A DNA stretch of 64,000 nucleotides, taken from the NCBI GenBank assembly GCA_900105225.1, contig LT629764.1:3241501-3305500 (forward strand). Reading direction: 5' to 3'. Both the position numbers and the translations under genes were made by a program. Below are positions 10,347 through 46,361 of the stretch, in pieces. The notes beneath the pieces were generated by a model. It saw only the letters and a program-made list of their open reading frames with translations. It did no database searches and was not told the DNA's origin. Source of the DNA: Paenibacillaceae bacterium GAS479. GTDB taxonomy: Bacteria; Bacillota; Bacilli; Paenibacillales; Paenibacillaceae. Each line of letters begins with the position of its first letter. Within the stretch, counting starts at the first letter, position 1.

Positions 10347-10571
10347 GTAACGGAACTGAGGAGCCTTATTTCGGCAAAATGGAGGGGTTACGAGGCGTAA
10401 CGAAACGGAGAGACGTTATTGGGGGAATTTCAAGGTAATATCACGTTTTTTGACTCAAATAACGCGGCTCAGTTTTGTTAGATAATTTGTGACCTCTTTT
10501 GAGGGGAAATAGGCTCTCTCAGTTCCGTTAGGAAGTGAATGGACAAGCTGAGGCGCTCTGAGTTTCCCTAG
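10347..10571. repeat. Dispersed nested-palindrome repeat, cluster A
   Basis: Forward copies of the TAACGRAACTGAG...TTATT motif lie at 10347-10370 and 10397-10420. Inverted copies lie at 10458-10480 and 10507-10530, with a decayed inverted copy at 10549-10571. The first copy is complementary to the fourth (both carry GCCTTATT or its complement) and the second to the third (ACGTTATT type), giving a nested palindrome. The cluster lies 51 nt after the deacetylase stop and before the terminator at 10601, so it is probably part of the 3' UTR. Confidence 0.85.
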
Positions 10572-10600
10572 TGTTGAAGCGAAGCAAGGGGAATTTTCAT

Positions 10601-10648
10601 AAAAAACAGGAGGAAGCTGAGATGGGCTCAGCCTCCTCCTGTTTTTTT
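10601..10648. terminator. Strong bidirectional-type terminator
   Basis: AAAAACAGGAGGA with AGCTGAG pairs with CTCAGCC and TCCTCCTG. The stem is followed by seven T (10642-10648) and preceded by six A (10601-10606), so it could work in both directions. It closes the deacetylase transcript downstream of repeat cluster A. Confidence 0.85.
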
Positions 10649-10808
10649 GTTATCCAAAATCGTAGACACAGCAGCCGCCAGCTTAAATACATATCGATGG
10701 ACAGTCACTTTAGCATGTTCGTAGGAATGAGTCTAAATCTCTCAACCGCTGGCCAAACTGTCTAGTAGAAGATACCGCTAGATTGGGAGCGGATGGGAGG
10801 GTATCAAC

Positions 10809-11891
10809 ATGCAAAACCAGCCGGATCAGGAGCGAGAGACGTGGGGGAATTTGCACGAATCGGGGCGTAGGTATGAGCAGGAAGGGCAAACGTTAGGGGG
10901 GGCATCTCGCTTGCAGGAGGAGTGGCCGGAGCCGCGGCAGGCGCTGCTGGCGCGAATGGCCGCTCGTTCGGAGAGCGTGCTGCTTGGAAAGGGAGAAGTC
11001 ATCGGACTGGCGATGACGGCTATGTTGGCTGGTGGGCATATTTTGCTAGAGGATGTCCCCGGAGTGGGTAAAACGCTGCTCGCACGCGCCTTGGCGCGCG
11101 TACTGGGAGGCAAGTTCCAGCGAATCCAATTTACCTCCGATTTGCTGCCAGCGGATTTGACGGGATCGGCCGTGTGGGATGCCCGAAAAGGGGAGTTCAT
11201 TTACCGTGAGGGACCGGTTATGGCCAATGTTGTGCTTGCGGACGAGATCAACCGCACCTCGCCTCGTACCCAATCCGCATTGCTGGAAGCGATGGAGGAG
11301 CGCTGCGTAACGGTGGACGGGACTACGCGGAAGCTTGCTTCTCCCTGGCTGCTTATAGCAACGCAAAACCCGCTGGACAGCGAGGGGACTTTTCCACTGC
11401 CGGAGGCGCAGATGGATCGATTCATGATGAGGCTGTCGATCGGCTATCCGGAAGCTCGCGAGGAAATTCGCATGCTGGAAATGATGGGTGCTGGCGAGCA
11501 GCAAGCACCGGAGCAGCTACGGCCGGTTGTCTCCCCCCGACAATGGGAAGTGATGGCGGAGGAAAGTCGCTCCGTACATTGCAGCCCGGAGCTGCTCGCC
11601 TATATGGTGCGCATCGTACAAGCGACGCGATCCGCTCCCGAGTTGGAGCTTGGCGCGAGCCCCCGCGCATCGCGGGATTGGCTGCGTGCTGCGCAAGCGA
11701 CAGCTTATATCGCGGGCCGGGACTATGTGCGACCGGCAGACCTGAAAGTTGTCGCCACATCGGTGCTGGCGCATCGGCTAGCCGCCAGAGGAGCTTACGG
11801 GCAGCCGGATCGTGAGCTGGCAATGCGAGCTCTTGCGCGGCTGCTGGCGGAAACGCCGTTGTCCGTAACTGGAAAGGCGGCTGCAAGATGA
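10809..11891 (+). CDS. MoxR-family AAA+ ATPase
   Basis: The 360-residue protein has a 50-residue variable N-terminus, then the MoxR AAA_3 core: Walker A GVGKTLLARALA, FTSDLLPADLTGSAVWD, Walker B VVLADEINR followed by TSPRTQSALLEAMEE, and sensor 1 LLIATQNP with LPEAQMDRFMM. The C-terminal lid carries ASPRASRDWLRAAQ. MoxR ATPases act as chaperones that mature or remodel partner proteins. The operon with a DUF58 protein and a membrane transglutaminase is the classic MoxR arrangement. The ATG at 10809 follows GGGAGGG; the stop overlaps the DUF58 start by 4 bp (ATGA). The client is not known. Confidence 0.93.
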   Translation: MQNQPDQERETWGNLHESGRRYEQEGQTLGGASRLQEEWPEPRQALLARMAARSESVLLGKGEVIGLAMTAMLAGGHILLEDVPGVGKTLLARALARVLGGKFQRIQFTSDLLPADLTGSAVWDARKGEFIYREGPVMANVVLADEINRTSPRTQSALLEAMEERCVTVDGTTRKLASPWLLIATQNPLDSEGTFPLPEAQMDRFMMRLSIGYPEAREEIRMLEMMGAGEQQAPEQLRPVVSPRQWEVMAEESRSVHCSPELLAYMVRIVQATRSAPELELGASPRASRDWLRAAQATAYIAGRDYVRPADLKVVATSVLAHRLAARGAYGQPDRELAMRALARLLAETPLSVTGKAAAR

Positions 11892-13351
11892 AGGCGGCGG
11901 GCAAGATGGGGCAAGCTGCTGGTACTGGAGGAGTCGTTGGTAGCCGAGCTTTAGGAGGAAACGGTGTCGGTGGAGCCGCTGCTGGGACTATTGCTGGAAG
12001 AGCCGCTGTCGGCGGTTCCAAAGGAAAGAGCGGCGGAAAGCTGAGGGCTGGCGATACAGCTGGGCTGCCTCGGACAAGACGGACTGCACTTATATTGCTT
12101 GCTGCGCTGCTCGGTGCGGCATTGGTCGCTGTCCTCCTGAGAGGAACAGCGCTCGATTGGTTTTTGGCCGGACTGCCGGCAGCTGTGCTGGCAATGGCGT
12201 GTTTGCCTAAGCTATGGGCGGCTGCTGGCGGGCTGAGCGTGGAGCGCGTCCTTGAGCCGGGCAGTAAGGACGGAGAGCTGTCGGTGCGGCTAATTTTTCA
12301 TGGCCGCTGGATACCGCCACTACTACTTGTCCAGGTTAGGGAACAACTGGACAACCTTTCTGCCGCAGAGCGGAAACCGCTTGTTCTGACTCGCTGGCTG
12401 CTGCCGTGGCTGAGTAAGGAATGGACGGCTCATTATCGGGTCAGCGGCTTAGGACGCGGAGTTTATCAATTCGCTCCGGCGACGATAGTTGTTACGGACC
12501 CGCTCGGACTCGCATGCGGCATGTTGAAACTTGCTGCGCCGGGAAGCTTCACCGTACTGCCTCAGCCGGAGGAGGCCGGGGTGTTCCGGGCATTGTCCGT
12601 GTCTGAAAAGAATGCTTCGGAGCCGGGTGGCTTTGCCGGTGATGGGGGCGGCAAATCGGCTGGTCGCGGCGGAGCGGGGCCGCTTAATCGTGTTTATCGC
12701 GAAGGCGATTCGCTCCGGCGGATCGACTGGCGGCTGGCGGCGAAGGGCAGAGGACTGCACACGCGGCTGGATGAACATGGGGCATCGCCGGTTATGCTGA
12801 TGCTGCTTGATTTGGATCCGCGCAGTTATAGGGAGACGGGAGCGGATGGCCTGCTGGATGCCTGCGCCGGACTTGCGGCCCGAGCACTGAAGGATGCTGG
12901 AGCCAACGGTTGTACTGTGAGATTGCAAGCTGGTGCGGAAGCAGAAGTTAAAGTTGCGCCGGGAGACAGCCGGGCTGCGCGGAATGCGGCTTTGCTGCTG
13001 GCCCGGGCAGTGCCAGCTCCCGGATCTGGTGCTGCGGAGGCACTTGAGCGATTGATGCTTGGAAAACAGTTGCCCCCTGGCAGCCGCATCGTTATTTTAA
13101 CTCCAGGATGGGACATTAAGCTGTGGGAGCAACTGGCGGAACTCTCGCGTGCAGCTCGCTGTGGATTGGAACTGCATGTTCCCATTAAGAGCACGCTGCC
13201 CCTTCAAGCAAGGCGTGAGCGTGAGCAGTGGGCTAAGGGAGCGGGGGTATCCTTGGCTTGGTTTCCTTTCGATGCCAGCAGACGCCAGGGATGGAGGGGA
13301 AGGCTAAGCGTAAGGGAGGAGGATGGACATGGCTGGCAGGCATGGAGATGA
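11888..13351 (+). CDS. DUF58 domain membrane protein
   Basis: The 487-residue protein has a Gly/Ala-rich N-terminal stretch of about 60 residues, two membrane helices (about 67-90 and 93-115), and a cytoplasmic or wall-facing region ending in the DUF58 signature NRVYREGDSLRRIDWRLAAK followed by a von Willebrand A-like fold (MLMLLDLDP). DUF58 proteins are the usual MoxR partners. It overlaps the MoxR gene by 4 bp and the transglutaminase gene by about 23 bp, so the three are translationally coupled. The Gly/Ala-rich start is unusual and matches a similar extension in the next gene. Confidence 0.88.
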   Translation: MKAAGKMGQAAGTGGVVGSRALGGNGVGGAAAGTIAGRAAVGGSKGKSGGKLRAGDTAGLPRTRRTALILLAALLGAALVAVLLRGTALDWFLAGLPAAVLAMACLPKLWAAAGGLSVERVLEPGSKDGELSVRLIFHGRWIPPLLLVQVREQLDNLSAAERKPLVLTRWLLPWLSKEWTAHYRVSGLGRGVYQFAPATIVVTDPLGLACGMLKLAAPGSFTVLPQPEEAGVFRALSVSEKNASEPGGFAGDGGGKSAGRGGAGPLNRVYREGDSLRRIDWRLAAKGRGLHTRLDEHGASPVMLMLLDLDPRSYRETGADGLLDACAGLAARALKDAGANGCTVRLQAGAEAEVKVAPGDSRAARNAALLLARAVPAPGSGAAEALERLMLGKQLPPGSRIVILTPGWDIKLWEQLAELSRAARCGLELHVPIKSTLPLQARREREQWAKGAGVSLAWFPFDASRRQGWRGRLSVREEDGHGWQAWR

Positions 13352-16300
13352 ACAAGGTGGATTACCGGGGAGCGGGCTTGTGCTGCAGGGAGCTGCGCGG
13401 AATGGGAACGTCCAGGGAGCAAGCGCTGGTTTAGGTGCTGGAATGAGCGTTAACGGGAAAGCTGGCGTGCAGCAGGCTGCCGCTGCCGTACCGACAGGCA
13501 CAGGGAAAGCAGCCAACGGGAAAACGGGCTTGAAGCAGACAGTTGGACTAACAAGCGCCGGACTAACAGGTACAAACCAGGCGAAAGCAGGCCGAGTGAA
13601 CGCCGGCCATGCCATCGTGGGAACGGCGGTTTCGGGAAGCACGGCTTCCCGAGCGCAAGATATCAAGGAGCATGTTGGCGGCTTGCTGGGCTGGCCCCTG
13701 CGTGCGGCTTCCAGCTTGCTGCTGCTTGCGCTGCTATTTGAGTGGTTACTGCCGCTCCAAGGGCTGCCACAGTGGACCCATGTATACGACCTTGGCATCC
13801 TGTTTGCGCTTGGAGCCTTTATTTTGCTAATTGGCGTGTTTCTGTTGTCGGACTGGGCGGCGTGGCTGCTCCGTTTAGTAGTCATATTGGCAGGAGCGGC
13901 GTTGCTGGGCGGCAGTGAGCCAAGTACGATGGAAAGCCTGATCGGATTGCCCGTACAGCTGCTGGATGATGCCCAAGCGCTGATTAGAGAGGGGCCTGTC
14001 GCCATGTCCGTTTCCGGGCAGGCGGTTTTTTTGCTGGGAGGATTGTCGATTCTCCTATCCGCTCTTCAAATGCTGGTGTGGATCCGCCAGTGGGGAATCG
14101 GGCTATTGGCGCTGACGGCCCTCTACCTCTGGTCTTTAAACCAGTGGTTTGGGCTGGACACACTCCCTAATCTCGCCCGGGCAGCTGCGGAAGGGTTGTT
14201 GCTGTCGGCGCTGCTGTCCTATCATCGGCTGAAAAGAAAGATCGAAGAGAACCCCGCCTCCTCGGCTGCAATGAAAAAGAGCGCGCCGCGAAGAGAGATG
14301 CCGGGCTGGCGCTGGTGGGCGGCTAGTGCGGCCGCAGCTGCGATGATTCCGCTTGGCGCAGCAGCTCTTTCCTGGGGCAAGGTCCAGACGGACGGACCGG
14401 CGGAATGGGCTTTGGGGGTGCAGCAGGCTATCCGCGACAACAACTCTGGATCATCCGGAGAGGGAAGGCCGCGCAGCGCGCCTGTATTCTCCGGCCAGCC
14501 GGGTTCCCAAGGCGCCGGAACGGGCGCGGGGGCGGCAGCTACAGGTTATAGCGAGAGCGATGCGCAGCTTGGGGCTCCGCTTTTTTTATCACAAGAACCG
14601 ATATTCTGGGCGCTCTCCCCGAAACCGCTGTACTGGCGGATGGAGACAAAATCAGCCTACACCGGCCAAGGGTGGAGAGATGACACACGCGAGCTGCTGG
14701 CCGTACAGGTTGGCGGAAGGGATGCTGAGGCAGGGGGAAGCAGTGGAACGCTGGGGAGCGGGGCAGAGAAGTCAGATGTTGGAGAGAAGACAGATGTCGG
14801 AGAAAAGGCGGATATTGGAGAGAAGACAGATGTCGGAGAAAAGGCGGAGAGTGGGGCCCGGTTTGTAGCTGGCACGGGCAGAGGGGCAGAAGAGGGCCTG
14901 GGGACAGAAGAGGGGCCGGGGACAGAAGCGAGACTAATTCGGCAGACAGTTTGGTTGCCTCAGTTGATAGATGGAATACCTTTGCCGGTATCTGGAGTGG
15001 AACCGGATTTAATCACAGCGGAATCACTATCTGGCGGATTACAAAAGAAACAGGCGAGTTACCTTCAGGAAATGGGCGGAGGCGCGATATACATGCCTAA
15101 TGCTGAGGAGGGACAGCTGACGTACACGGTAGAATCACGGCTAGACGAACCTGCTGCGGACATGCTTCGCCAGGTGGGGGAGGCAGAGCGCAGTGATGCA
15201 GGGAAGAAAGAGCGTAGTATTGATGCAGGGAAGAAAGAGCATAGTGATGCGGAGCAGGCAGAGCGCAGTGATGCAGGGAAGAAAGAGCATAGTATTGATG
15301 CAGGGAAGAAAGAGCATAGTGATGCGGAGCAGGCAGAGCGCAGTACGGTGGAGCAAGAGCAGCTTGAGCTCCAGTTGAAGGCCAACCTTCAGTTGCCGGC
15401 GGAACTGCCGGAGCGGGTCAGAGAGCTGGCCCAGAAGATTGCGAAGGATGCGGGGGAGAATCGTTATGACCGCGCGCTTGCCATGCAGGATTACTTGAAG
15501 ACGAGCTTCCGCTATACGCTCACAGATACTCAGGTTCCAGGTGCGGGAGAGGATTTGGTCGATCAGTTTCTCTTTGAGCAAAAGGCAGGTTACTGCGTGC
15601 ATTTTTCCACCGCGATGGTCGTTATGCTCAGGTCGGTCGATATTCCGGCGCGCTGGGTTAAAGGTTTTGCGCCCGGTGATGAGCTGTCGGCCGAGCAAGC
15701 TCCGGCCGCCGCGCGGAAGGCGCTGGCACGCGTTAATGCCAGCGGCAGCATGTACCAGGTGAGCGCGGCGGACGCGCATGCCTGGGTTGAGGTTTATTTT
15801 CCCGGCGCGGGCTGGGTCCCGTTCGACCCGACGCCGGGATACGCCGCAGGCGCGGAGCAGCCGGCAGCGGCAGCGCCGCCGGCTGTGGAAGGCTCCTCCG
15901 GCGGAGGCGAAGCCGCCGGAGAGGCGCCGCGCGGGGCGGAGGCTTCCAGCCCCGCGCTGGCGGAGCAGCTGCGCGCGGCCGCCGGCGACGCGGCGCGCCT
16001 GGCCGCCGCGTTAGCGCGCGCAGCCGCGCAGCCGGCCCCGCTCGCGGCCAGCGCAGCGCTGGCCGCGGCCGCGGCTGCGCTGGCGTCGCCGGCGCTGCGC
16101 GGACGGCTGCGCCTCGCGCTGGCGCTGCGGCGCTACGCGCGCCATGCCGGCGCAGCCAGCGCTGCGGCGGAGGCGCGCGCGGAACGCGCCCGCCGCGCCG
16201 CGCAGCGGGCCGCGCTGCTCGCCGCAGCGGAGGCGCTGCTGCGCGCGCTGGAGCGCCGCGGCGGCGCGGGCCCGGCGGCTGCAAGCGCCGCCGCCGGCCC

Positions 16301-16508
16301 GGCCGAGCGCGCCGCAGCGCTCGCGCCGCTGCTGGCGCCGGAGGCCGGCGCGCAGCTGCGCCGGCTCGCCGCCTGGGCCGAGGGCGCGCGCTTTGGCGCT
16401 CCGGCCGCCTGGCGCGGGCCGACGCCAGCGCAGCTCGCTAGCTGCGCGGCCGCGCTGCAGGCTCGGCGCGCCTGGCCGTCCGCCGGGCAAGCTCCGCGTC
16501 TCGGCTAA
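13329..16508 (+). CDS. Transglutaminase-like membrane protein (TgpA/YebA type) with extreme Ala-rich tail
   Basis: The third gene of the MoxR operon encodes about 1059 residues. A Gly/Ala-rich N-terminus of about 115 residues precedes five or six membrane helices (about 120-345), an extracytoplasmic part with two tandem-repeat insertions, and the transglutaminase-like core with the Cys motif QKAGYCVHFSTAM, the His motif DAHAWVEVYF and the Asp of VPFDPTPGY. After residue 840 comes a roughly 220-residue tail that is mostly Ala, Arg and Leu, placed where relatives have one membrane helix and a DUF4129 domain; RFGAPAAW near the end fits a DUF4129 remnant. Start: ATG 13329 has GGGAGG at ideal spacing; ATG 13323 is too close to it. 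A/T bases are only 9 of 60 at 16201-16260. Confidence 0.85.
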   Translation: MAGRHGDEQGGLPGSGLVLQGAARNGNVQGASAGLGAGMSVNGKAGVQQAAAAVPTGTGKAANGKTGLKQTVGLTSAGLTGTNQAKAGRVNAGHAIVGTAVSGSTASRAQDIKEHVGGLLGWPLRAASSLLLLALLFEWLLPLQGLPQWTHVYDLGILFALGAFILLIGVFLLSDWAAWLLRLVVILAGAALLGGSEPSTMESLIGLPVQLLDDAQALIREGPVAMSVSGQAVFLLGGLSILLSALQMLVWIRQWGIGLLALTALYLWSLNQWFGLDTLPNLARAAAEGLLLSALLSYHRLKRKIEENPASSAAMKKSAPRREMPGWRWWAASAAAAAMIPLGAAALSWGKVQTDGPAEWALGVQQAIRDNNSGSSGEGRPRSAPVFSGQPGSQGAGTGAGAAATGYSESDAQLGAPLFLSQEPIFWALSPKPLYWRMETKSAYTGQGWRDDTRELLAVQVGGRDAEAGGSSGTLGSGAEKSDVGEKTDVGEKADIGEKTDVGEKAESGARFVAGTGRGAEEGLGTEEGPGTEARLIRQTVWLPQLIDGIPLPVSGVEPDLITAESLSGGLQKKQASYLQEMGGGAIYMPNAEEGQLTYTVESRLDEPAADMLRQVGEAERSDAGKKERSIDAGKKEHSDAEQAERSDAGKKEHSIDAGKKEHSDAEQAERSTVEQEQLELQLKANLQLPAELPERVRELAQKIAKDAGENRYDRALAMQDYLKTSFRYTLTDTQVPGAGEDLVDQFLFEQKAGYCVHFSTAMVVMLRSVDIPARWVKGFAPGDELSAEQAPAAARKALARVNASGSMYQVSAADAHAWVEVYFPGAGWVPFDPTPGYAAGAEQPAAAAPPAVEGSSGGGEAAGEAPRGAEASSPALAEQLRAAAGDAARLAAALARAAAQPAPLAASAALAAAAAALASPALRGRLRLALALRRYARHAGAASAAAEARAERARRAAQRAALLAAAEALLRALERRGGAGPAAASAAAGPAERAAALAPLLAPEAGAQLRRLAAWAEGARFGAPAAWRGPTPAQLASCAAALQARRAWPSAGQAPRLG
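14775..14846 (+). repeat. 18-bp in-frame tandem repeat x4
   Basis: Units start at 14775, 14793, 14811 and 14829. They encode D-V-G-E-K-T, D-V-G-E-K-A, D-I-G-E-K-T and D-V-G-E-K-A, so a 36-bp pair has itself been duplicated. It lies in the extracytoplasmic part of the transglutaminase, outside the catalytic core. Confidence 0.9.
15183..15332 (+). repeat. 75-bp in-frame tandem duplication
   Basis: Two 75-bp units (15183-15257 and 15258-15332) differ at one position that I can see and are followed by the start of a third unit at 15333. Each encodes 25 charged residues built from shorter S-D-A-G-K-K-E-H type blocks. The near identity implies a recent duplication. Confidence 0.9.
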
Positions 16509-16534: not shown

Positions 16535-16719
16535 GCCAACGGAACTGACACACCTTATTTCAAACAAATCAGCGCTTTTTCAAGCGTAACGAAACTCAGC
16601 GACGCTATTTCGCGGGAAAATCGCTCTAACTATGCTCTTTGGTGGGAATAACGCGTCTCAGTTCCGTTGCAAATTGAAATGCTCAATATATGGCCAAATA
16701 GCGCGTCTCAGTTCCGTTA
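16535..16719. repeat. Dispersed nested-palindrome repeat, cluster B
   Basis: Forward copies lie at 16535-16560 and 16584-16610; inverted copies at 16646-16669 and 16696-16719. Step sizes are 49, 62 and 50 bp, the same geometry as clusters A, C and E. It begins 27 nt after the transglutaminase stop. Confidence 0.85.
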
Positions 16720-20096: not shown

Positions 20097-20127
20097 AAGT
20101 TACATTCTCATTAAAAATTTAATTAAC

Positions 20128-20194
20128 TTTCGTATAATTCCGGGAATTGGCCCGGAAGTCTCTACTCGGTCACCGTAATGACCAGGCTACGAAA
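20128..20194 (+). ncRNA. Purine riboswitch aptamer, guanine class, upstream of pbuG
   Basis: Stem P1 is TTTCGTA (20128-20134) with TACGAAA (20188-20194). The P2 arms CCGGG and CCCGG surround AATTGG, the J2/3 core AGTCTCTAC is present, and P3 is GGTCA with TGACC. The specificity base just before the 3' P1 strand (20187) is C, which predicts guanine/hypoxanthine rather than adenine binding. A terminator follows at 20322, so ligand should switch pbuG off. Confidence 0.93.
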
Positions 20195-20321
20195 TTTCAG
20201 GGTGCGAGCTGTCTTCTAACAGCCGTCGCGCGGCTTTTATGTCTTTCGTTCCGGTTTGCAGCCGGATTCAAAGTTCATAGAGTCCGGCGCGACGCGGACG
20301 AGCTAACCGCCCTGAAAGCCC

Positions 20322-32833: not shown

Positions 32834-32927
32834 AGGGAGGTAATGTTGCTCGAAACGAGTTTGGCTCGCCCGCGAGATGTCGAATCTTGTAAGTAGGCGT
32901 GGGTTGAGGCTCAATGTAACACATATA

Positions 32928-32993
32928 CCTCGTATATCTTCGGGAATCGGCCCGAACGTTTCTACCCGGCGACCGGAATCGCCGGACTACGGG
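32928..32993 (+). ncRNA. Purine riboswitch aptamer, guanine class, of the pur operon
   Basis: P1 is CTCGTA (32929-32934) with TACGGG (32988-32993), including one G-U pair. P2 arms TCGGG and CCCGA, core ACGTTTCTACC, and P3 arms GGCGA and TCGCC are all readable. The discriminator base at 32987 is C, which predicts guanine. The 3' P1 strand is shared with an antiterminator (32987-32995 with 33081-33089). Confidence 0.93.
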
Positions 32994-33079
32994 ATAGCTT
33001 GGTTCGGCCAGATTGGCCGATCCGCTAATTGGCGGCGTCTGCCTGGATGACAATCCTTGGAGCAGGTCTAAGCTGCATG

Positions 33080-33206: not shown

Positions 33207-33692
33207 ATGGGTGCAAGCGTGGGCGTCATCATGGGCAGCAAGTCCGATTGGGAGACGATGAAATTGGCCTGCGACGTTCTGGACGAGCTGGGCATTGCCT
33301 ATGAGAAGCGGGTCGTTTCGGCCCACCGAACGCCAGATCTCATGTTTGAGTACGCGGAGACAGCAGCGGAGCGTGGGCTCAAGGTTATTATAGCGGGGGC
33401 CGGCGGTGCGGCTCATCTTCCCGGAATGGTGGCGGCCAAAACCCTACTTCCGGTTATTGGCGTTCCCGTTAAGTCCTCCGCGCTGAGCGGGCTCGATTCA
33501 CTGCTCTCCATCGTACAAATGCCAGCCGGCATTCCTGTTGCCACAGTGGCAATCGGCGCTGCGGGCGGAGCCAACGCCGGTTTGCTCGCCGCGCAAATTC
33601 TCGGCGCGTTCCAGCCGGAGGTTCAGGCGCGCGTTGGGGCGCGCCGCGATGCTGTGCGCCAGCAGGTGCTGGCAAGCGGGGAAGAGCTGTGA
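33207..33692 (+). CDS. purE: 5-(carboxyamino)imidazole ribonucleotide mutase
   Basis: PurE (class I) moves the carboxyl group of N5-CAIR to give CAIR. The 161-residue protein has [14 protein letters not shown] (substrate phosphate loop), the [12 protein letters not shown] block with the catalytic-site His, and [19 protein letters not shown] with the second active-site His. The start ATG at 33207 lies behind GGCGGGATGATGAG, a modest ribosome binding site. It is the first gene of the pur operon, about 365 nt from the promoter, and overlaps purK by 4 bp. Confidence 0.96.
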
Positions 33693-35041
33693 GCGCCAGC
33701 GATAAACGCGGGGCGCTGACGAGCGGCGAAGCGGAAGGAGCGGTGACGATGGAGCGGAGCGGTGAGGCCAATCCATCGTTGCAGAGCAACGGGGATGGTG
33801 TGACGGCGATCGAGCGTAGCGCTAATGCCGATGCATCGTTGCAGGGCAGCGGAGATGGAGCGGCGGTTCCGCTGCGCGAAGCTCGGACCATTTTGCCGGG
33901 AGCAACTGTCGGCATCCTCGGCGGCGGTCAGCTTGGCCGCATGATGGCGTTGGCTGGAAGTGCGATGGGGTATCGCTTTATCGCACTTGATCCTGCCTCG
34001 GACGGGCCAAGCGCGCAGGTAGGCGGCAGCATCGAGGCGGCTTATGATGATCGTGAGGCGGCTCGTCTGCTTGCTGAGCAATGCGACGTTATCACATACG
34101 AGTTCGAGAATGTGGACGCAGGCGTCGCCGCCATGCTCATGGAGCAGTCCTATGTGCCTCAGGGCAGCCAGCTGCTGTACACGACGCAGCATCGGCTGCG
34201 AGAGAAGCGCGCAGTTGAGGCGGCCGGGGCAAAAGTTGCCCCGTACGCCGAGATCGGCAGCGAGCAAGAGCTGCGCGAAGCCGTCCAGCGACTCGGCTTG
34301 CCTGCGGTACTGAAGACGGCGACCGGCGGCTACGACGGCAAGGGTCAGTGGGTCATTCGCAGCGAGGAAGAGATTCCGGCGGCGTACGCAGAGCTTGCTA
34401 AAGCCGGTACAGAGCTGGTGCTGGAACAGTTCATTCGTTTCAGCAAGGAGTTGTCCGTCATCGCTGCACGGGGCTCGCATGGTGAAGTCCGGGTATTTCC
34501 ACCGGCGGAGAACATCCATGTAGACAACATACTGCATCTGTCGATCGTTCCCGCTCGAGTGGAACCGGCCGTCCTGGCGGAGGCTGAACGTCTGGCGCTG
34601 CGCATCGTGGAGGGCCTCGGAGCGGTAGGTCTTGTGGCGGTCGAGCTTTTCCTGACTGAGGATGGTGGGCTATACGTGAACGAACTGGCTCCGCGCCCCC
34701 ACAACAGCGGCCATTACACGATGGAGGCATGCCGCACTTCGCAGTTTGAGCAGCATGTGCGCGCTGTTTGCGGCCTGCCGCTAGGCGATACATCGCTGAT
34801 GAGTCCAGTAGTGATGGTCAATGTGCTGGGTCAACATTTGGAGCCGATCATTCAACGCATGGCTGCCCGTGACAGCGAGGCTGAGAGACTTGGCGTTGCG
34901 CCTAAGCTTCATCTATATGGCAAGGTGGAAGCCAAGTCCGGTCGCAAAATGGGTCATGTCAACGTGCTGGCGCCGAACACGGACGCTGCGCTGGCCTGGA
35001 TCGAGGGTACCGGTATTTGGCAAGCAGAGAACGAGGGCTGA
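33689..35041 (+). CDS. purK: 5-(carboxyamino)imidazole ribonucleotide synthase with N-terminal extension
   Basis: PurK carboxylates AIR with ATP and bicarbonate to N5-CAIR, the substrate of PurE. The ATP-grasp core starts near residue 70 ([19 protein letters not shown]) and includes [23 protein letters not shown] (ATP loop) and [15 protein letters not shown] (metal and substrate site). The family length is about 380; this frame has 450 because of about 68 extra N-terminal residues holding two degenerate copies of an E-R-S-x-x-A-x-x-S-L-Q block, coded by a 57-60 bp duplication. The GTG at 33689 overlaps the purE stop (GTGA). Start inside the extension (ATG 33749) is possible. Confidence 0.93.
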
Positions 35042-35316: not shown

Positions 35317-35593
35317 AAGCGACTGAGTTTCGCTTGTCGAACAATGATCGAGCATGGCTCTTCATACGTAACGAAACTGAGAAGCCTTATTTCAGCAAAA
35401 TCCAAGGTTTTGGAGGCGTAACGAAACTGAGAGACGCTATTGAGGGGATTTTGCGTTCCTATCCTCTTTTCTGTTCTCAATAACGCTTCTCAGTTCCGTT
35501 AGAGGATTCGCAACCTATGTTTGAGGACGAATAAGCTCTCCCAGTTCCGTTAGCGTATGAATGGTTGAGCCGAGGCGCTCCGAATTTCGCTTG
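35317..35593. repeat. Dispersed nested-palindrome repeat, cluster C
   Basis: Forward copies at 35367-35392 and 35416-35441; inverted copies at 35478-35501 and 35530-35552; decayed inverted copies at 35317-35337 and 35572-35593. Steps are 49, 62 and 52 bp. The segment from 35553 to 35593 also resembles 10531-10571 of cluster A beyond the core motif (both end GAGGCGCTC...TTTC), so clusters A and C are copies of one larger element. Confidence 0.85.
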
Positions 35594-35795: not shown

Positions 35796-35937
35796 TTTAA
35801 CGCAACTGAGACGCGTTATATTAGTTTTTTCAGCGCTGTGCGTTGTGAGCCAATATATCGCCCAATAACGCCGTTCATTTGCGTTAGAATGAGCATAGGT
35901 ATATTTTCGATGAAATAGGGGCTCTGAGTTCCGTTAG
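35796..35937. repeat. Dispersed nested-palindrome repeat, cluster D (three copies)
   Basis: One forward copy at 35796-35820 and inverted copies at 35863-35886 and 35912-35937; steps of 67 and 49 bp. The forward copy and first inverted copy share a private variant (TAACGCAA with TTGCGTTA) that keeps the two arms complementary. The outer forward copy seems to be missing, replaced by the 14-bp repeat. Confidence 0.78.
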
Positions 35938-36001: not shown

Positions 36002-37297
36002 ATGTTGGAGCGTTACAGCAGGCCCGAGATGCGGGAGATCTGGACGGAAGAGAATAAGTTCAAAGCATGGCTGGAGGTTGAGATTTGTGCCTGCGAGGCA
36101 TGGTCGGAGCTCGGAGTTATTCCCAAGGAAGATGTAGTCGCGATTCGCGAGAACGCCGGCTTCAACATCGATCGGATTAGCGAGATCGAGCTGGAGACGC
36201 GCCATGACGTCATCGCCTTTACACGTTCGGTATCTGAAACGCTTGGAGCTGAGCGCAAATGGGTGCATTACGGCCTGACTTCCACCGACGTGGTTGATAC
36301 GGCGATGGGTTACCTGCTGCGCCAGGCCAATGAGATTCTGGAGCGCGATGTGACGAATTTCATCGAAATTCTGCGCGGCCAGGCCGTTGCCTACAAGGAT
36401 ACCGTCATGATGGGCCGCACGCATGGCGTACATGCGGAGCCGACAACTTTTGGCTTGAAGCTTGCTCTCTGGTATGAAGAAATGAAGCGCAACTTGGATC
36501 GTTTTCGCCACGCGGCGGACGGTGTTCAATTCGGTAAAATTTCCGGTGCAGTCGGTACGTACGCAAACATTGACCCGTTTGTTGAGGAATTCGTTTGCCG
36601 CAAGCTCGGCACTAAGCCGGCGCCAATCAGCACGCAGACGCTGCAACGTGACCGCCACGCTGAATACATGGCCACATTGGCGCTAATCGCCACTTCGCTG
36701 GACAAGTTCGCGACCGAGATTCGTGCGCTTCAAAAGAGTGAATTCCGCGAAGTCGAGGAGCCTTTTGCCAAGGGTCAAAAGGGTTCGTCCGCGATGCCGC
36801 ATAAACGCAATCCGATCGGCTGCGAAAACATCTCCGGTCTCGCCCGCATCATCCGCGGTCATATGATCAGCGCTTATGAGAACGTGCCGCTCTGGCATGA
36901 ACGCGACATCAGCCACTCTTCCGTGGAACGCGTCATTTTGCCGGATGCAACGATGCTGCTCAATTATATGCTGAACCGTCTCGGTAACATCATTAAGAAC
37001 CTTCAAGTATTCCCGGAAAATATGAAGCGCAACATGGGCCGCACGTTCGGTGTGCCGTTCTCCGGCCGCGTCATGACGAAGCTGATCGACAAAGGCTTCA
37101 GCCGCGAGCAAGCGTACGATACGGTGCAGCCGCGCGCCATGCAGGCATGGGAAGAACAGCGCCAGTTCCGCGACATTATCGGCTCGACGCCGGAAATTAC
37201 CGAGCATTTGAGTGCAGAAGAGATCGACGATGCGTTTAATCCGAGCTGGCATTTGAAACATGTGGATACGATTTTCCGCCGCCTGGAGCTGATCTAG
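36002..37297 (+). CDS. purB: Adenylosuccinate lyase
   Basis: PurB splits SAICAR to AICAR and fumarate in IMP synthesis and adenylosuccinate to AMP. The protein, 431 residues as in Bacillus subtilis, has the fumarase/aspartase-fold blocks [43 protein letters not shown] (general-acid His region) and the signature [12 protein letters not shown] with the catalytic Ser loop. The open frame reaches a GTG at 35990, but the ATG at 36002 gives the conserved start [10 protein letters not shown]. The ribosome binding site (AAAGGTG) is about 11 nt upstream. It follows a 960-nt repeat-rich spacer after purK. Confidence 0.96.
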
Positions 37298-39527: not shown

Positions 39528-40223
39528 ATGAAGTTTGCGGTCATTGTATTCCCCGGTTCCAACTGTGATATCGATTGCTTCAAGGCGGTTGAAGAAACGA
39601 TCGGGCAATCCGTCGATTATGTCTGGCACACTGCGACTGATTTGTCCGGTTATGACGCCATTCTCGTGCCCGGCGGCTTCTCTTATGGCGACTATCTGCG
39701 CTGCGGCGCTATTGCGCGTTTTGCTCCCGTTATGAGCGAGGTCGTCAAGGCGGCCGAGGCTGGCAAATTCGTGCTTGGCATCTGCAACGGCTTCCAGATT
39801 CTGACCGAGGCGGGACTGCTGCCGGGCGCGCTGCTGCGCAACCGGGATCTGAAGTTCCTTTGCCACCAATCACCTCTTGAGGTCGTGAATGCGGCAACTC
39901 CTTTTACAAACCAATACACTCAGGGCGAGATTATCTCGATCCCGATTGCGCATGGCGAAGGCAACTATTATTGCGATGACGAGACGCTGGAGCGGCTGAA
40001 GGCGAACAATCAGATCGTATTCCGCTACGCAAATGACGAGAATCCCAACGGCTCGCTTCATGACATCGCTGGTATTTGCAATGAGCGCGGCAACGTTGTT
40101 GGCATGATGCCTCACCCCGAGCGCGCTGTGGATCAGTTGCTCGGCTCCGAGGATGGCAAGCGGATGTTTACATCGATTTTGAACGCATGGAGGGAACAGC
40201 ATGGCGCAGCAGTTAACAGCTAA
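39528..40223 (+). CDS. purQ: Phosphoribosylformylglycinamidine synthase, PurQ glutaminase subunit
   Basis: PurQ hydrolyses glutamine to feed ammonia to PurL. The 231-residue class I amidotransferase has [12 protein letters not shown], the oxyanion block [18 protein letters not shown], the nucleophile elbow [12 protein letters not shown] (Cys) and the His/Glu of [14 protein letters not shown]. The open frame starts earlier (39426) inside purS, but the ATG at 39528 is the family start and has GGAGG overlapping the end of purS. It overlaps purL by 23 bp. Confidence 0.96.
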
Positions 40224-42444
40224 GGAACCGACAGCGGAGCAAATCTCCGAGCAGAAGATTTACCAGCAGTTCGGTGTGACGGATCATGAGTATGAGCTCG
40301 TTTGCGGCTTTATGGGACGTCTGCCCAACTACACCGAGATCGGCGTGTTCAGCGTTATGTGGTCGGAGCATTGCTCCTACAAAAACTCCAAGCCAATCCT
40401 CAAGAAGTTCCCGATTACGGGACCGAAGGTGCTTATGGGGCCAGGCGAAGGCGCGGGCATCGTAGATATTGGTGACAACCAAGCCGTTGTGTTCAAAATC
40501 GAATCCCACAACCACCCGTCCGCTGTCGAGCCTTACCAAGGCGCAGCAACTGGCGTTGGCGGCATCATTCGCGATATTTTCTCGATGGGAGCCCGTCCCG
40601 TGGCGCTGCTGAACAGCTTGCGCTTTGGCAACCTTGAGAGCGACCGCGTTAAATATCTGTTCGAGCATGTTGTCAGCGGCATCGCTGGATACGGCAACTG
40701 TATCGGCATCCCGACCGTTGCGGGCGAAGTCATGTTCGACGAAAGCTACGAAGGCAATCCGCTCGTCAACGCGATGTGCGTCGGCCTCATCGACCATGAC
40801 AAAATCCAGCGCGGCGTCGCCAAAGGCGTTGGCAACCCGGTATTTTACGTCGGCCCGGCAACAGGCCGCGACGGCATTCACGGCGCGACATTTGCTTCCG
40901 TTGAGCTGTCCGAGGAATCGGAAGAGAAGCGTACAGCCGTTCAGGTCGGCGACCCGTTCATGGAAAAACTCGTTATGGAAGCGACGCTTGAGCTGATCAA
41001 TTCCGGCATCGTGCTTGGCATTCAGGACATGGGCGCGGCAGGCCTGACCTGTTCCAGCGCTGAGATGGCATCCAAGGCAGGCAACGGCCTGGAGCTTTAT
41101 CTCGACGAGGTTCCACAGCGTGAAGAGGGCATGACCCCTTACGAAATGATGCTTTCCGAGTCCCAGGAGCGGATGCTGTTCGTCATCGAGCCTCAGCACG
41201 AGGCGCAGGCGCGCGAGATTTTTGATCGTTGGGGCATCATCTGTGCCAAAGTCGGCAAAGTAACCGACGACGGCCGCCTGCGCCTGTTCCATCAAGGCGA
41301 GGAAGTTGCCGATATGCCAGTCAAAGCGCTTGTGGACGAGTGCCCGGTGTACAACAAGCCGTCCAAGGAGCCTGCTTACTTCTCTGCGAACGCTGCGATC
41401 GACACAGCTGCTTACAGCGAAGTGACCGATTTGACGGACGCACTGCAAAAAGTACTCGCATCCCCGACGGTTGCGAGCAAAGAATGGGTGTACAAGCAGT
41501 ACGACCATATGGTCCGTACGAGCACGGCGGTTCCTCCTGGCTCCGACGCCGCGGTTGTACTCGTGCCTGGCACTCGCAAGGCGCTGGCCATGACAACCGA
41601 CTGCAACAGCCGTTACGTTTACCTCGATCCAGAGGTCGGCGGTGCAATCGCGGTTGCCGAGGCTGCGCGTAATATTGTCTGTTCCGGCGCCGCGCCGCTG
41701 GCCATCACGGATAACCTCAACTTCGGCAACCCAGAGAAGCCGGAAGTGTTCTGGCAGCTAGAGAAGTCGGCAGACGGCATGAGCGAAGCTTGCCGCGTGC
41801 TGGAAACGCCAGTTATCGGCGGTAACGTCAGCTTGTATAACGAGAACGCCAAAGGCGCGATTTACCCAACGCCGGTAATCGGCATGGTCGGCTTGATCGA
41901 CGATATCGACTACATCACGACGCAGGAGTTCAAACGTGGGGGCGATGCGGTTATTCTGCTTGGCGACACACACGCAGAGCTTGGCGGCAGCGAGCTGCAA
42001 TATGTTTTGCAAGGTAAAGCTGAAGGTCGTCCTCCAGCTATCGACCTGGCGGTCGAAAAGCGCCTGCTGGATACGGTGCAGGCAGCGATTCGCGGCGGTC
42101 TCGTCGCTTCGGCGCATGATTTGTCCGAAGGCGGCCTGGCGGCTGCGCTGGCGGAATCCAGCTTCGGACGCGGCCTCGGGGCCGAGGTTAATGTGGCGAC
42201 GGAGCTGCGCGGAGATCATGCGCTGTTCAGCGAGTCGCAGTCGCGTATCCTGCTGAGCGCATCGCAGGAGAGCAAAGCGGCGCTGCTCGCACTGCTCGCG
42301 GAGAGCGGCGTTCCGCATGCGGAGATCGGTACGGTCGGTGGAGAAGAACTGGTCATCAAGGTGAACGGCAAACCGGGCGTCAAGACGCAGGTCAACGAGC
42401 TCCGGAAAGTGTGGAAGGATGCGATTCCATGTCTGATGAAGTAA
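40201..42444 (+). CDS. purL: Phosphoribosylformylglycinamidine synthase, PurL subunit
   Basis: PurL is the ATP-dependent FGAM synthase of the small type (747 residues) that needs PurS and PurQ. Blocks include [15 protein letters not shown] near the N-terminus, [30 protein letters not shown] (active-site His and ATP loop), [18 protein letters not shown] and, in the second AIRS-like half, [11 protein letters not shown]-type [19 protein letters not shown]. The ATG at 40201 has GGAGGGA 6-8 nt upstream within purQ. The end overlaps the apparent purF start. Confidence 0.96.
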
Positions 42445-44153
42445 ACATAGCGGTTCAGCTCGGCTCCCGATATGGAGCGGCCGATGTTGCGGGCATGTCA
42501 GGCGGGACGGCCGGATTTGCGGCAAAAGCGGGGGCGCAAACTGATGCGCCTGCGTTGTCTACAGCGGCATTCGCTGCTGACGCAACGGCAATTCCAGCAG
42601 GCTTAGGGGGCTCTGCGCCTGCCCACCCGGCGGCTGCGACTGGGCGTTCGTCGCATTCCGCGGCGGTGCGTCCTGGGTCTGAGGAGCTGCGCACGGTGTC
42701 GCAGGCATGGGAGCAATCCCATTACAACGAGGGCATCGGGCGGGACGATATGTTTGACAAGCTGAAGGAGGAGTGCGGCGTGTTCGGTGTGTTTGGCACA
42801 CCGAACGCCGCTTCGCTCTCTTACTATGGGTTGCACGCGCTGCAGCATCGTGGTGAGGAAAGCTCCGGTGTTTGCACCGTCGACAGTGCAAGCGGCAGCT
42901 TTGCCTATCATCGCGGCATGGGACTCGTCAAAGAGGTGTTCACGAGCGATATTCTCGCTTCCTTGCCAGGCGACCGGGCGATCGGCCATGTACGCTATTC
43001 AACTTCGGGTGCTAGCCAACTCGGCAATGCTCAGCCGCTCATCTTTAAGTATCGCGACGGCGACTTGGCGGTGGCGACGAACGGAAATATCGTCAACGCC
43101 CCGTCGATCCGCCGGGAGCTTGAGAATATGGGATCTATTTTTCAAACGACAAGCGACACGGAAGTTATCGCACATCTGATTGCCCGCTCGCCTAAAGACT
43201 TCGTGAGTGCGGCCAAAGACGCTCTGCAGCGCATCATCGGGGGCTTCGCCTTCCTGATCATGACCAATGAACGCTTGCTCGTCGCTTCCGACCCTAATGG
43301 CTTGCGTCCGCTCGTCATGGGCCGTCTCGGTGACGGTTATGTATTCGCCTCAGAAACATGCGCGTTCGAAACGATCGGCGCCCAGTATGTGCGCGACGTT
43401 CAACCGGGTGAGCTGCTTATTTTGGACAAGGATGGCTTGCAGGAAGACCGTTTTGATCAAGGGGGGCGCCGCGCCAGCTGTGCGATGGAATATATCTATT
43501 TCGCTCGTCCGGACAGCGACATCAACGAGGTCAACATTCACACTGCGCGCAAGCAGATGGGTCGCCAGCTGGCGATTGAAGCATTTGTTGACGCCGATAT
43601 CGTCGTTGGTGTGCCTGATTCCAGCATCAGCGCTGCAATCGGTTATGCCGAGCAGACGGGCATCCCGTATGAGATGGGGCTCATCAAGAACAAGTATTCC
43701 GGCCGGACGTTCATCCAGCCTTCCCAGGAGCTGCGCGAGAAGGGCGTTAAAATGAAGCTGTCCGCTGTGCGCAAAATCGTGCAGGGCAAACGCGTCGTCA
43801 TGATCGACGACTCTATCGTACGCGGCACAACGTCGCTGCGGATCGTTACTTTGCTGCGCGAGGCGGGCGCAAAAGAAGTGCATGTGCGGATCAGCTCCCC
43901 ACCGTTTGCTAATCCGTGTTACTACGGCATCGACACGCCGGATCGGCGCGAGCTGATCGCGTCCTCCAAAACGGTGGAGGAGATCCGCGAGGCAATCAAC
44001 GCCGATACACTTTATTTTTTAAGCGCCGAGGGACTGATTGATGCGGCTTCGGTGCCGGGGAATGACAAGGGCGGAGGCATGTGCCTCGCTTGTTTCACCA
44101 ACGAATACCCGACTCCGGTTGATGAGAACTCGGATAAGAGCTGCAGCTGCTAG
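42429..44153 (+). CDS. purF: Amidophosphoribosyltransferase with expanded N-terminal propeptide
   Basis: PurF makes phosphoribosylamine from PRPP and glutamine, the committed step. The N-terminal nucleophile is the Cys of [10 protein letters not shown], exposed by propeptide removal in the Bacillus type; the PRPP loop is [14 protein letters not shown]. Conserved cysteines ([23 protein letters not shown]) are the 4Fe-4S ligands of this class. If translation starts at ATG 42429 (inside the end of purL, AAGGAT upstream) the propeptide has 115 residues, largely an Ala-rich insertion, against 11 in B. subtilis. GTG 42696, with GAGGAG 9 nt upstream, would give a 26-residue propeptide and a normal length of 485. 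Both are plausible. Confidence 0.93.
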
Positions 44154-44234
44154 AATACCAATTCGATTCATATAGCGGGCTGTGCAGCCGGAGTGAGGCG
44201 GCAGTCCAATCCATTTTGCAAGGAGTGACGGTCA

Positions 44235-45278
44235 GTGGCAGAGGCTTACAAGCAAGCAGGCGTGGACATCGCAGCGGGCAATGAAGCGGTCGAGCGCATG
44301 AAAAAGCACGTCAAGAGAACGATGCGCCCCGAGGTTTTGGGCGGCTTGGGCGGCTTTGGAGGCATGTTCGGCCTCGACAAAAACAAGTACGAGGAGCCGG
44401 TGCTTGTTTCCGGCACGGACGGGGTCGGCACGAAGCTGATGCTTGCTTTTGCCATGGATAAACATGATACGATCGGCATCGACGCTGTCGCGATGTGTGT
44501 CAATGACATTATCGTACAAGGCGCGGAACCGCTGTTCTTCCTTGATTATCTGGCGACCGGTAAAGTCGAGCCGTCCAAAATCGAGGCCATCGTTGCCGGA
44601 ATCGCTGAAGGCTGCGTACAGGCAGGCTGCGCGCTCATCGGCGGCGAAACGGCTGAGATGCCGGGCATGTACACCCCTGAGGAGTATGACATCGGCGGCT
44701 TCACGGTTGGCGTTGTTGATAAAGCCAAGATCATCGACGGTACGACAATTTCACCGGGCGATGCTGTAATCGGTCTCGCTTCCAGCGGTATTCACAGCAA
44801 CGGTTATTCGCTGGTGCGCCGCCTGCTTTTGGAGCAGTCCGGCTACAGCTTGCAGGATACACTGACGGAGCTGGACGGCAAAAAGCTGGGCGACGTGCTG
44901 CTTGAGCCAACCCGCATCTACGTTAAGCCAGCGCTTGAGCTGGTGTCGCGTGTCACCGTGAAGGGCATGGCCCATATTACAGGCGGCGGTTTTATCGAGA
45001 ACATCCCTCGTGTGCTACCGGATCATGTTAATGTGGATATCCAGTACGGAAGCTGGCCAATCCAATCGATTTTCTCGCTTATGCAGGACAAAGGCTCCAT
45101 TACGAACCGCGACATGTTTACGACGTTCAACATGGGCATCGGGCTAATGGTTGTTGTGCCTGCGGATGAAGCCGAAACGGCGCTTTCCGTGCTGGCTGAG
45201 CTTGGTGAGCAGGCGTACCGGATCGGTACGGTCACGGAAGGCAGCCGTAGCGTTACCTTCACGGGAGCCGACGTTTAA
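44235..45278 (+). CDS. purM: Phosphoribosylformylglycinamidine cyclo-ligase (AIR synthetase)
   Basis: PurM closes the imidazole ring of FGAM to give AIR. The 347-residue protein has [57 protein letters not shown] and the ring-binding [15 protein letters not shown] block. The start is GTG at 44235, with AAGGAG about 10 nt upstream, and matches the family N-terminus. The stop overlaps the purN start by one base (TAATG). Confidence 0.96.
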
Positions 45279-45931
45279 TGGCTGAGGGGCTGCGCATCGC
45301 TGTGTTTGCTTCCGGTCAAGGAAGCAACTTTCAGGCGCTTGCGGACGCAGCGGTGCAGGAGAAGCTCGGAGGCTCCATCGAGCTTCTCGTCTGCGACAAA
45401 CCGGTCGCTCCGGTTGTGGAGCGGGCTCGCCGCGCGGGTATAGATGCTTGGGTGTTCAATCCCAAGGACTACGCTTCCCGCGAAGCATATGAAACGGATA
45501 TTCTCGCTGAATTGCAGCGCCGCGGCGTTGGTCTTATCGTGCTAGCCGGTTATATGCGCATTCTGACGCCGGTGTTAGTCGAGGCTTATGTCGGCCGGAT
45601 GATCAACATTCATCCGTCGCTGCTGCCCGCTTTTCCGGGGATGAATGCGATTCGCCAGGCGCTTGAGCATGGTGTCAAAGTGACTGGCGTGACGATTCAT
45701 TTTGTCGACGGCGGTTTGGACAGCGGTCCGATCATCGCACAGCGGACGTTGGATATAAGCGAGGGCGAGACGGAGGCCATGCTGGCCGATCGAATTCATG
45801 CGGCGGAAAATGTGCTGTATCCTTGGGCCGTGCGCGCCATCGCTGAAGGGCGGGTCTCGCTGAGCGGTCGAAGAGTTAGTCTTGATGCAGCAGCGGACTT
45901 TGGCGGGTATGAGGCTTCAGCGGACAAGTAG
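45278..45931 (+). CDS. purN: Phosphoribosylglycinamide formyltransferase (10-formyl-THF dependent)
   Basis: PurN formylates GAR. The 217-residue protein has AVFASGQGSNFQALADA (phosphate loop), VLAGYMRILTPVLVEAY, the signature NIHPSLLPAFPG with the active-site Asn/His, and VTIHFVDGGLDSGPIIAQR with the catalytic Asp. The ATG overlaps the purM stop by one base. The last codons (Asp-Lys-stop) lie inside the first unit of a 12-bp tandem repeat, so repeat expansion touches the gene end. Confidence 0.95.
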   Translation: MAEGLRIAVFASGQGSNFQALADAAVQEKLGGSIELLVCDKPVAPVVERARRAGIDAWVFNPKDYASREAYETDILAELQRRGVGLIVLAGYMRILTPVLVEAYVGRMINIHPSLLPAFPGMNAIRQALEHGVKVTGVTIHFVDGGLDSGPIIAQRTLDISEGETEAMLADRIHAAENVLYPWAVRAIAEGRVSLSGRRVSLDAAADFGGYEASADK

Positions 45932-45984
45932 GTCGGCAAGTTGTTAGGCAAGTCGATAAACAAGTCGGTAAACAAGTCGGAAGG
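45925..45984. repeat. 12-bp tandem repeat starting in the last codons of purN
   Basis: Five adjacent units of CAAGTCGGTAAA type start at 45925, 45937, 45949, 45961 and 45973. The first contains the purN stop codon. Confidence 0.9.
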
Positions 45985-46173
45985 CTGCAGGTCGGCAAAT
46001 GGTCCAACATTCGATCTAGTCGCCCAACAATCGAACCAATGTAGCTCAAAAACTTCTGCAAACAAGTAACTCGGCAACGTTCCAAAGGAACTCAGAAGAG
46101 CTGATTGGTTGAAGTAATGGCGGTAAACTCTAGGCTAGGTACGAGGCATCAGTCAGCGAGCAACCTGGCAACG

Positions 46174-46361
46174 TTCTAACGAAACTCAGAAGCGTTATTT
46201 GGCTCTAAATAATGGGCTTGAGATCGTAACGAAACTGAGCGGCGTTATTTGCAGCATATCGAGGCTTATTGAGAGGAAAAGGCATCAATAAGCTTTCTGA
46301 GTTTCGTTAGCTCTCGATTTCAGCCGTTTTTCCTTAAATAAGGCTTGTCAGTTTCGTTAGC
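46174..46361. repeat. Dispersed nested-palindrome repeat, cluster E
   Basis: Forward copies at 46174-46200 and 46225-46250; inverted copies at 46286-46311 and 46336-46361; steps 51, 61 and 50 bp. The first forward copy has CTCAG instead of CTGAG, and the first inverted copy carries the matching change, which keeps those arms complementary. It lies in the purN-purH spacer. Confidence 0.85.

Follow-up and report, generated by a model that had tools for sequence, protein, structure and literature searches.

Dispersed four-motif repeat units of fixed geometry in Paenibacillaceae: candidate helically phased, DNA-wrapping arrays

INTRODUCTION

Dispersed repeats in bacterial genomes are usually ascribed to selfish DNA or to RNA hairpins. 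Those closest to the subject of this report include the bacterial interspersed mosaic elements (BIMEs) and repetitive extragenic palindromes (REPs) of enterobacteria, which are binding sites of gyrase, IHF, and Pol I and in which REP units, single hairpin motifs, form variable mosaics; the REPIN–RAYT systems, with many-copy intergenic palindromic pairs and lineage-specific motif variants; and bacterial miniature inverted-repeat transposable elements (MITEs) such as Correia, bcr, and RUP, which are short, multi-copy, and intergenic and have inverted ends. Further parallels are the multi-site wrapping or looping operators of Lrp, AraC, and Lac, where sites share one helix face and whole-turn changes are tolerated, and nucleosome-positioning sequences and archaeal histone DNA, where AT-rich steps are phased at about 10 bp along the wrapped length. 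Here we analyze a family of intergenic repeat units, each built of four copies of a 24-bp motif, seen in a 64,000-bp window (the whole stretch under study, positions 3,241,501–3,305,500 of contig LT629764.1) of the 5.52-Mb single-contig genome of Paenibacillaceae bacterium GAS479 (G000).

Like BIMEs and REPs, the units are palindromic repeats scattered between genes, frequently at 3′ ends, and may be nucleoprotein sites; unlike them, they combine four motifs, exact helical spacing, and phased spacers, RAYT is missing from GAS479, and the lineage-varying motif would speak against sites of DNA gyrase. They share with MITEs a short, multi-copy, intergenic, inverted-end character, yet possess a fixed internal geometry, no convincing target-site duplication, and no autonomous relative among the loci examined. 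Same-face sites and whole-turn tolerance are common to the Lrp-, AraC-, and Lac-type operators, from which the units differ in numbering dozens of copies per genome, in lying mostly away from divergent promoters (in GAS479), and in keeping one rigid four-site plan in several genera. The ~10-bp AT phasing is that of nucleosome-positioning and archaeal histone DNA, to which the units add four strongly conserved motifs. Their period of 10.0–10.1 bp differs from the ~11 bp described as characteristic of bacterial genomes (PMC4132750).

No such element is described in the titles and opening abstract lines found for Paenibacillus or Cohnella repeats, and searches on phased repeats, on REPIN/RAYT with Paenibacillus, and on gyrase with interspersed mosaic elements yielded no paper. 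The motif letters themselves led only to unrelated entries (plants, fertilizer, a goose virus), judged by their listing. The element is real, widespread, and unusually well defined.

A FOUR-MOTIF UNIT OF FIXED GEOMETRY

Each unit carries two forward and two inverted 24-bp motifs (F1, F2, R2, and R1; the FFRR plan) and spans about 183 bp in total. The motif is bipartite, reading TAACGRAAC, a core of about 7 bp (N7), and GCSTTATT. An earlier note on the window had proposed a dispersed repeat family, with four of five clusters on a forward–forward–inverted–inverted plan, and both proposals hold: the window contains four FFRR units that are complete and a fifth unit that has decayed, and the family extends far past its limits. 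Within the window, the 13-mer TAACGRAACTGAG occurs 20 times with up to two mismatches, against 1.98 expected (100 shuffles, largest value 7).

Over the whole GAS479 record the exact 13-mer TAACGRAACTSAG is found 159 times (80 + 79) and its reversed-pattern control not at all; a few of these matches are counted twice because the record ends overlap by at least 9.6 kb. The ends (~2000–11600 and 5507030–5516600) share 99.8% identity across 9,580 bases, as if the assembly had not been circularized. R1, a sequence-only model made from 21 copies, has at least 150 matches on both strands (150 of 861–884 first-look candidates were scored, and all matched). The GAS479 stretches fetched for the analyses below were chosen around these R1 matches.

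A motif scan of these stretches gave 73 entries, namely, 61 with four arms, five with three, and seven with two, two of the last being the halves of one unit divided by an insertion element. Units 6507 and 5511538 are identical and were counted once because both lie in the repeated record ends, leaving 60 distinct full units. Among the 61 four-arm entries, 40 have first-base steps of exactly 50/70/50 bp and 21 deviate by no more than 1 bp at any step, and same-strand motif pairs less than 400 bp apart are separated by 50 ± 1 bp in 57 of 58 cases on the forward strand and 59 of 62 on the reverse. Steps of 50/61/49 bp had been reported earlier; the fixity they implied is confirmed, the figures themselves resting on other reference points. 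Conservation starts at the outer motif and is at background level beyond it, save for a weak flanking likeness in one subfamily. A preponderance of isolated single motifs, which would have told against an organized element, is not what the fetched stretches contain.

ONE GEOMETRY, VARYING MOTIF LETTERS

When 84,980 species were scanned with a pattern tolerating steps of 38–68 bp, 58 stretches matched, many coming from a few genomes (Paenibacillus herberti, one metagenome-assembled genome [MAG], Cohnella thailandensis, and others). The step is 49–51 bp in 55 of them, the exceptions being L098 (58), L101 (41), and L135 (42; apparently coding repeats). The hosts are Paenibacillus, Cohnella, Saccharibacillus, an unclassified Paenibacillaceae MAG, Alicyclobacillus, and one clostridial MAG (that of L135). 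The exact pattern is present in 21 of 40 relatives, and R1 at E ≤ 0.001 matches all 14 genomes searched, which had been picked as congeners or pattern carriers. Of 121 genomes in the class, a broader model, R2, matches 12 at E ≤ 1e-6; the family itself accounts for nine of these, GAS479 among them, and under these strict filters the family member G013 has no match.

The motif letters vary among these genomes, reading TATCGGACATNNGATCCGTTATTT in G003 and G004, TAACGAAAC...GCGCTATT in G001, and TAACGGAAC...GACSTTATT in G024. All 118 units in which the four arms are good have 50/70/50-bp spacing to within 1 bp per step (32 from G024, 27 from G001, 18 from G028, 16 from G004, 10 from G002, 6 from G003, and 9 from P. 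herberti R33 [G007], whose long orthologous stretches are mostly 90–95% identical to GAS479), in a set that gave 3 bp of slack either way, omits seven weak-arm units, and still holds a few duplicates. Their loci came via R1 or the species-scan pattern, and the pattern matches are themselves free of R1 bias.

One genus, g6, has a different central step: 16 of the 17 units fetched there (from G012, G109, G123, G134, and G155, in a search permitting outer steps of 40–60 bp and central steps of 41–120 bp) are 50/80/50 within 1 bp, and the remaining one is 50/70/50. Three units from G019, in another genus, are all 50/70/50. Except in L098, sites stand whole helical turns apart and their spacing changes by whole turns, and comparative sequence here amounts to a natural helical-phasing experiment, with 50/70/50 in most lineages examined and 50/80/50 in one. 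Constant spacing with variable filler, as the earlier note had it, thus recurs in other genera: the geometry is fixed and the spacers are mostly unrelated between units, with a mean in-register identity of 0.32–0.41 outside GAS479. Near relatives are present among the spacers of G002 (mean best match 0.78).

A related motif recurs in tandem every 51 bp in two arrays, one in Alicyclobacillus ferrooxydans (L103, 6500–7130) and one in Cohnella cholangitidis (L100, 5950–6450). A unit of Paenibacillus sp. LHD-117 (L134, 2068–2260) has three forward motifs at 50-bp steps; arrays can therefore grow by whole 50-bp steps.

HELICAL PHASING OF THE SPACERS

AT-rich blocks stand 10 bp apart in the spacers, in register with the motifs, at columns 29–32, 39–42, 79–82, and 89–93 and their mirror positions. 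The spectral peak lies at 10.1 bp over the unit and, for the spacers alone, at 10.0 bp in GAS479 and 10.1 bp in the other genomes, with power of 0.60 and 0.72 against 0.012 and 0.047 in the flanks. Scored with an AT mask, the spacers are 0.78–0.91 AT in phase and 0.27–0.42 out of phase across eight genome sets, in 169 of 169 deduplicated units; when the mask is slid by 5 bp, the contrast inverts (0.35 vs. 0.81, outside GAS479 and P. herberti). The AT blocks of the 50/80/50 units of g6 keep their register with the motifs, and the dyad, which is AT-rich elsewhere, therefore turns GC-rich.

CONSTRAINT AND CONCERTED CHANGE

At 15 loci orthologous between GAS479 and P. herberti (13 of 60 arms, lost or unalignable, being excluded), differences number 54 of 1080 in the motif without position 5, 112 of 1071 in the spacers, and 417 of 4152 in the flanks, so that the motif, position 5 excepted, diverges at half the flanking rate. 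By sequence comparison, orthologous motifs prove to be under purifying constraint and spacer letters do not. Position 5 changed in 26 of 47 arms, in 22 of which it is A in GAS479 and G in P. herberti; at locus 46177 the readable arms have A in GAS479, G in P. herberti, and C in G006.

Within units, position 5 is the same in all four arms in 31 of 57 GAS479 units, against 7.3 expected. Position 7 in G024 (A 74, C 47, and T 3) is equal in the four arms of 26 of 31 units, splits 3:1 in five, and splits 2:2 in none; GGAAC and GGAC units there behave as two nearly pure classes. Agreement in half-site 1 is strong for all six arm pairs (z 5.3–7.8), absent from half-site 2 (z −4.8 to 1.1), and found in the core for the F1–F2 pair only (z 3.7). 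The half-site 1 agreement is predicted by neither base pairing nor a conversion tract. Like subunits recognizing half-site 1 would predict it, and the GGAAC and GGAC classes could reflect paralogous proteins.

A PUTATIVE DNA-WRAPPING ARRAY

A selected multimeric protein-binding array near five helical turns per step, as suggested when the clusters were noticed, is favored by the geometry, the AT phasing, the one-turn insertion, and the motif constraint. From these features and from placement we infer that the units are probably helically phased arrays for protein binding and DNA wrapping, a reading that sequence evidence strongly favors. A multimeric, sequence-specific protein would assemble on the unit, bind the four same-face 24-bp motifs, and wrap ~18 helical turns (183 bp) of DNA. 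One homomultimer may occupy each unit, since position 5 or 7 of half-site 1 tends to match across the four motifs. The wrapped complex could then, instead of serving a promoter as its operator, structure the chromosome at gene 3′ ends, be it as a loop anchor or as a topological or transcriptional insulator.

We advance this chromosome-structural role tentatively. Similarly tentative is a sequence-programmed, nucleosome-like bacterial particle, in which a lineage-specific multimer would wrap 18 turns at dozens of sites via four phased motifs; were it to exist, the nearly pure GGAAC and GGAC classes of G024 would point to several paralogous wrapping proteins among which the chromosome is divided. 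If the wrapping proposal holds, a large family of bacteria of soil, plants, and industry should possess a protein complex that wraps DNA at defined chromosomal sites. The proposal would make the role of repeats at gene 3′ ends a testable question and offer a route to a new nucleoid protein.

Placement was assessed with a home-made gene caller, three of the 61 GAS479 units being excluded because they lie at stretch edges. The remaining 58 units comprise 22 between convergent, 34 between co-directional, and 2 between divergent gene pairs; the background of gaps of at least 220 bp in the same stretches, unit gaps included (n = 196), comprises 43, 114, and 39. In seven genomes, 143 of 170 units have a gene called on both sides; 62 of these lie between convergent, 73 between co-directional, and 8 between divergent genes. 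As a separate observation, which is a lead and not a result, 46 of 72 GAS479 entries fall in the origin-proximal half, the origin being placed near 2.6 Mb by skew change. Corresponding counts elsewhere, with the origin assumed at the contig start and only listed best matches counted, are as follows: 23 of 30 in G001, 12 of 14 in G004, 11 of 12 in G109, 12 of 13 in G123, and 13 of 14 in G134, with no such bias in G002 (17 of 46) or G019 (5 of 11).

Several observations weigh against the wrapping proposal. The spacers alone show a second, lower spectral peak near 12 bp (0.53 and 0.52). The AT mask was derived from the profile of the same 169 units, and because of this shared origin the g6 units matter as the independent check. 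Predicted static curvature is modest, the relative end-to-end distance being 0.888 against 0.919 for shuffles in GAS479, while G001 scarcely departs from shuffles and G028 not at all; the AT signal is therefore better read as bendability that would serve induced wrapping. Selected periodic motifs need not bend DNA, as one study argues (PMC7537859). The P. herberti unit L098, which has lost an arm, has a step 8 bp longer, which is not a whole turn. Outside GAS479, unit placement is not clearly different from that of the few gaps in small stretches. No specifically recurring neighbor gene was found; one large shared neighbor cluster of 10 proteins resembles ABC-type transporters (three members, by eye). 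Finally, many intergenic units turn over between species, which is also compatible with mobile DNA.

Some of this turnover leaves a trace. P. herberti is without exactly 50 bp at 4084058 and 46177 and, by alignment, also at 3099355, which reads as unit loss through recombination between direct motifs. A second count at 3099355 came to 39 bp, its slice having started within the deletion. Clean empty sites were sought by synteny, and the flanks were too changed to separate insertion from deletion.

ALTERNATIVE EXPLANATIONS

The units might be MITE-like nonautonomous transposons with two transposase sites per end, the transposase being encoded elsewhere and phasing and length being selected for synapsis. 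We regard this as unlikely. Dozens of copies per genome, loci that vary between species, and an FFRR plan like doubled end sites all suit such an element, as does an excess of 3-bp direct repeats in one flank register, where 9 of the 169 units have them and 1.17 would be expected (nominal p 4e-6, or ~0.003 once corrected for 784 registers). That register is, however, asymmetric and weak, and makes no convincing target-site duplication. Across 264 loci with gaps of up to 7 kb, no gene lies between the FF and RR halves except in the one unit divided by an IS3-type element (L029 and L093); other listed splits are tandem arrays (L100, L103, and L132), and short gaps in L264 and L265 were taken as cross-detection of the near-palindromic motif. 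No autonomous transposon is present among these 264 loci; whole genomes were not scanned, nor was a transposase with matching ends searched for elsewhere. A transposon also sits poorly with a central spacing as fixed as the other steps and with motifs still constrained in orthologous copies. Plasmids and phages, queried with one unit, gave no match, and the motif-pair pattern hit three stretches in viral contigs. Nothing matching a known insertion-sequence end or MITE family, which would have undercut a new element, turned up, no library of either having been searched.

Units are themselves interrupted by mobile elements. One is divided at its center by the IS3-type element (L029/L093), and in another (L030) an IS4-type element interrupts F1 and is accompanied by a 9-bp direct repeat, both types and the repeat being assigned by eye from open reading frames and sequence; the idea that divided units are autonomous copies was rejected in favor of these insertions. 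By eye, IS3-type elements or end-like letters stand at or near unit centers in L029 (1800–3700, the element itself), L139 (~3455, end-like letters), and L063 (~4700–5070, a nearby IS3-type open reading frame), as if the center were an IS3-type insertion target.

A nested-hairpin RNA at gene 3′ ends, serving as a terminator, a stabilizer, or a processed RNA, had been offered alongside the protein-binding array and now appears very improbable. The unit strand does fold far better than shuffles (z −4.8 to −8.3, four units), RNAalifold returns nested helices with both sides changed in 10 of 18 pairs, and position 17 in GAS479 has a nested 2:2 pattern in 39 of 60 units. Covariation is, however, about equal for nested and crossed pairings (0.240 vs. 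0.222) and thus not specific to one fold; the signal is therefore mainly motif likeness, and the RNA fold is disfavored. In GAS479 the 2:2 pattern is crossed in 36 of 60 units at position 14 and in 34 of 60 at position 15, and position 17 in G024 is not nested (3 nested, 1 direct, and 5 crossed; 31 units), so these patterns look like subfamily ancestry. The 2:2 units at positions 5 and 7 in GAS479 likewise have no nested preference (3 nested, 6 direct, and 4 crossed). An RNA would not be expected to show ten-bp AT phasing or a 10-bp insertion, and Rfam at gathering thresholds has no match at the units, its matches in the window being two purine riboswitches only.

Neutral repeat debris, homogenized by gene conversion or template switching, is a more strained account still. 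It can draw on the 50-bp deletions between direct repeats in P. herberti, on the likeness of position 5 or 7 within units, and on the slight F1–F2 likeness of the core. Gene conversion is disfavored because half-site 2 does not follow the strong agreement of half-site 1, as it would in a conversion tract; moreover, selection is required to account for the one-turn change and for AT phasing where spacers are mostly unrelated, and the motif changes at half the neutral rate.

REP/REPIN elements moved by a RAYT (Y1 transposase) are also many-copy intergenic inverted pairs of a conserved motif, and are scarcely credible here: Y1_Tnp (PF01797) is found in 4 of 14 genomes (G002, G006, G007, and G024) and missing from the other ten (G000, G001, G003, G004, G005, G009, G018, G027, G028, and G035), all with R1 matches, which refutes RAYT as a general mechanism.

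UNITS IN THE WINDOW

First-base offsets within the four complete units of the window are 0/50/120/170 in three and 0/50/120/171 in one (Table 1). The earlier note had begun one cluster at 35317; unit C in fact begins at 35369, with a weak outer motif at 35323. The cluster placed at 35796 is present, as a decayed three-motif unit (D). The nesting of motif variants described for unit A is only approximate, the outer tails being GCCTTATT and GCCTATT and the inner ones ACGTTATT and GCGTTATT.

Table 1. Repeat units, their motifs, and riboswitch aptamers in the 64-kb window
Feature	Positions	Strand	Remarks
Unit A, full FFRR	10348–10530		183 bp; orthologue in P. herberti; flanking called genes 8649–10295 (+) and 10809–11891 (+)
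Unit A, F1	10348–10371	+	
Unit A, F2	10398–10421	+	+50
Unit A, R2	10457–10480	−	13-mer at +120
Unit A, R1	10507–10530	−	13-mer at +170
Unit B, full FFRR	16537–16719		28 bp past called gene ending 16508
Unit B, F1	16537–16560	+	
Unit B, F2	16587–16610	+	
Unit B, R2	16646–16669	−	
Unit B, R1	16696–16719	−	
Purine riboswitch aptamer (RF00167)	20110–20209	+	72.7 bits
Purine riboswitch aptamer (RF00167)	32910–33009	+	68 bits
Unit C, full FFRR	35369–35552		184 bp; called genes 33689–35041 (+) and 36029–37297 (+) either side
Unit C, F1	35369–35392	+	
Unit C, F2	35419–35442	+	
Unit C, R2	35478–35501	−	
Unit C, R1	35529–35552	−	
Unit D, decayed	35798–35936		F 35798–35821; R 35863–35886; R 35913–35936 (our reading of the sequence)
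Unit E, full FFRR	46177–46359		also syntenic in P. herberti (one arm deleted) and in relative G006
Unit E, F1	46177–46200	+	
Unit E, F2	46227–46250	+	
Unit E, R2	46286–46309	−	
Unit E, R1	46336–46359	−	

Unit B was not found at its syntenic place in P. herberti, where the flanks have changed, and the syntenic place of unit C holds no full unit in three relatives. Unit D retains one motif in P. herberti. Beside one subfamily of units, in many GAS479 flanks, stands a weaker motif like GGCGCTYTGAGTTTCGCT, sometimes recurring at intervals of ~40 bp; its sites in the window are 35320–35340 and 10555–10575.

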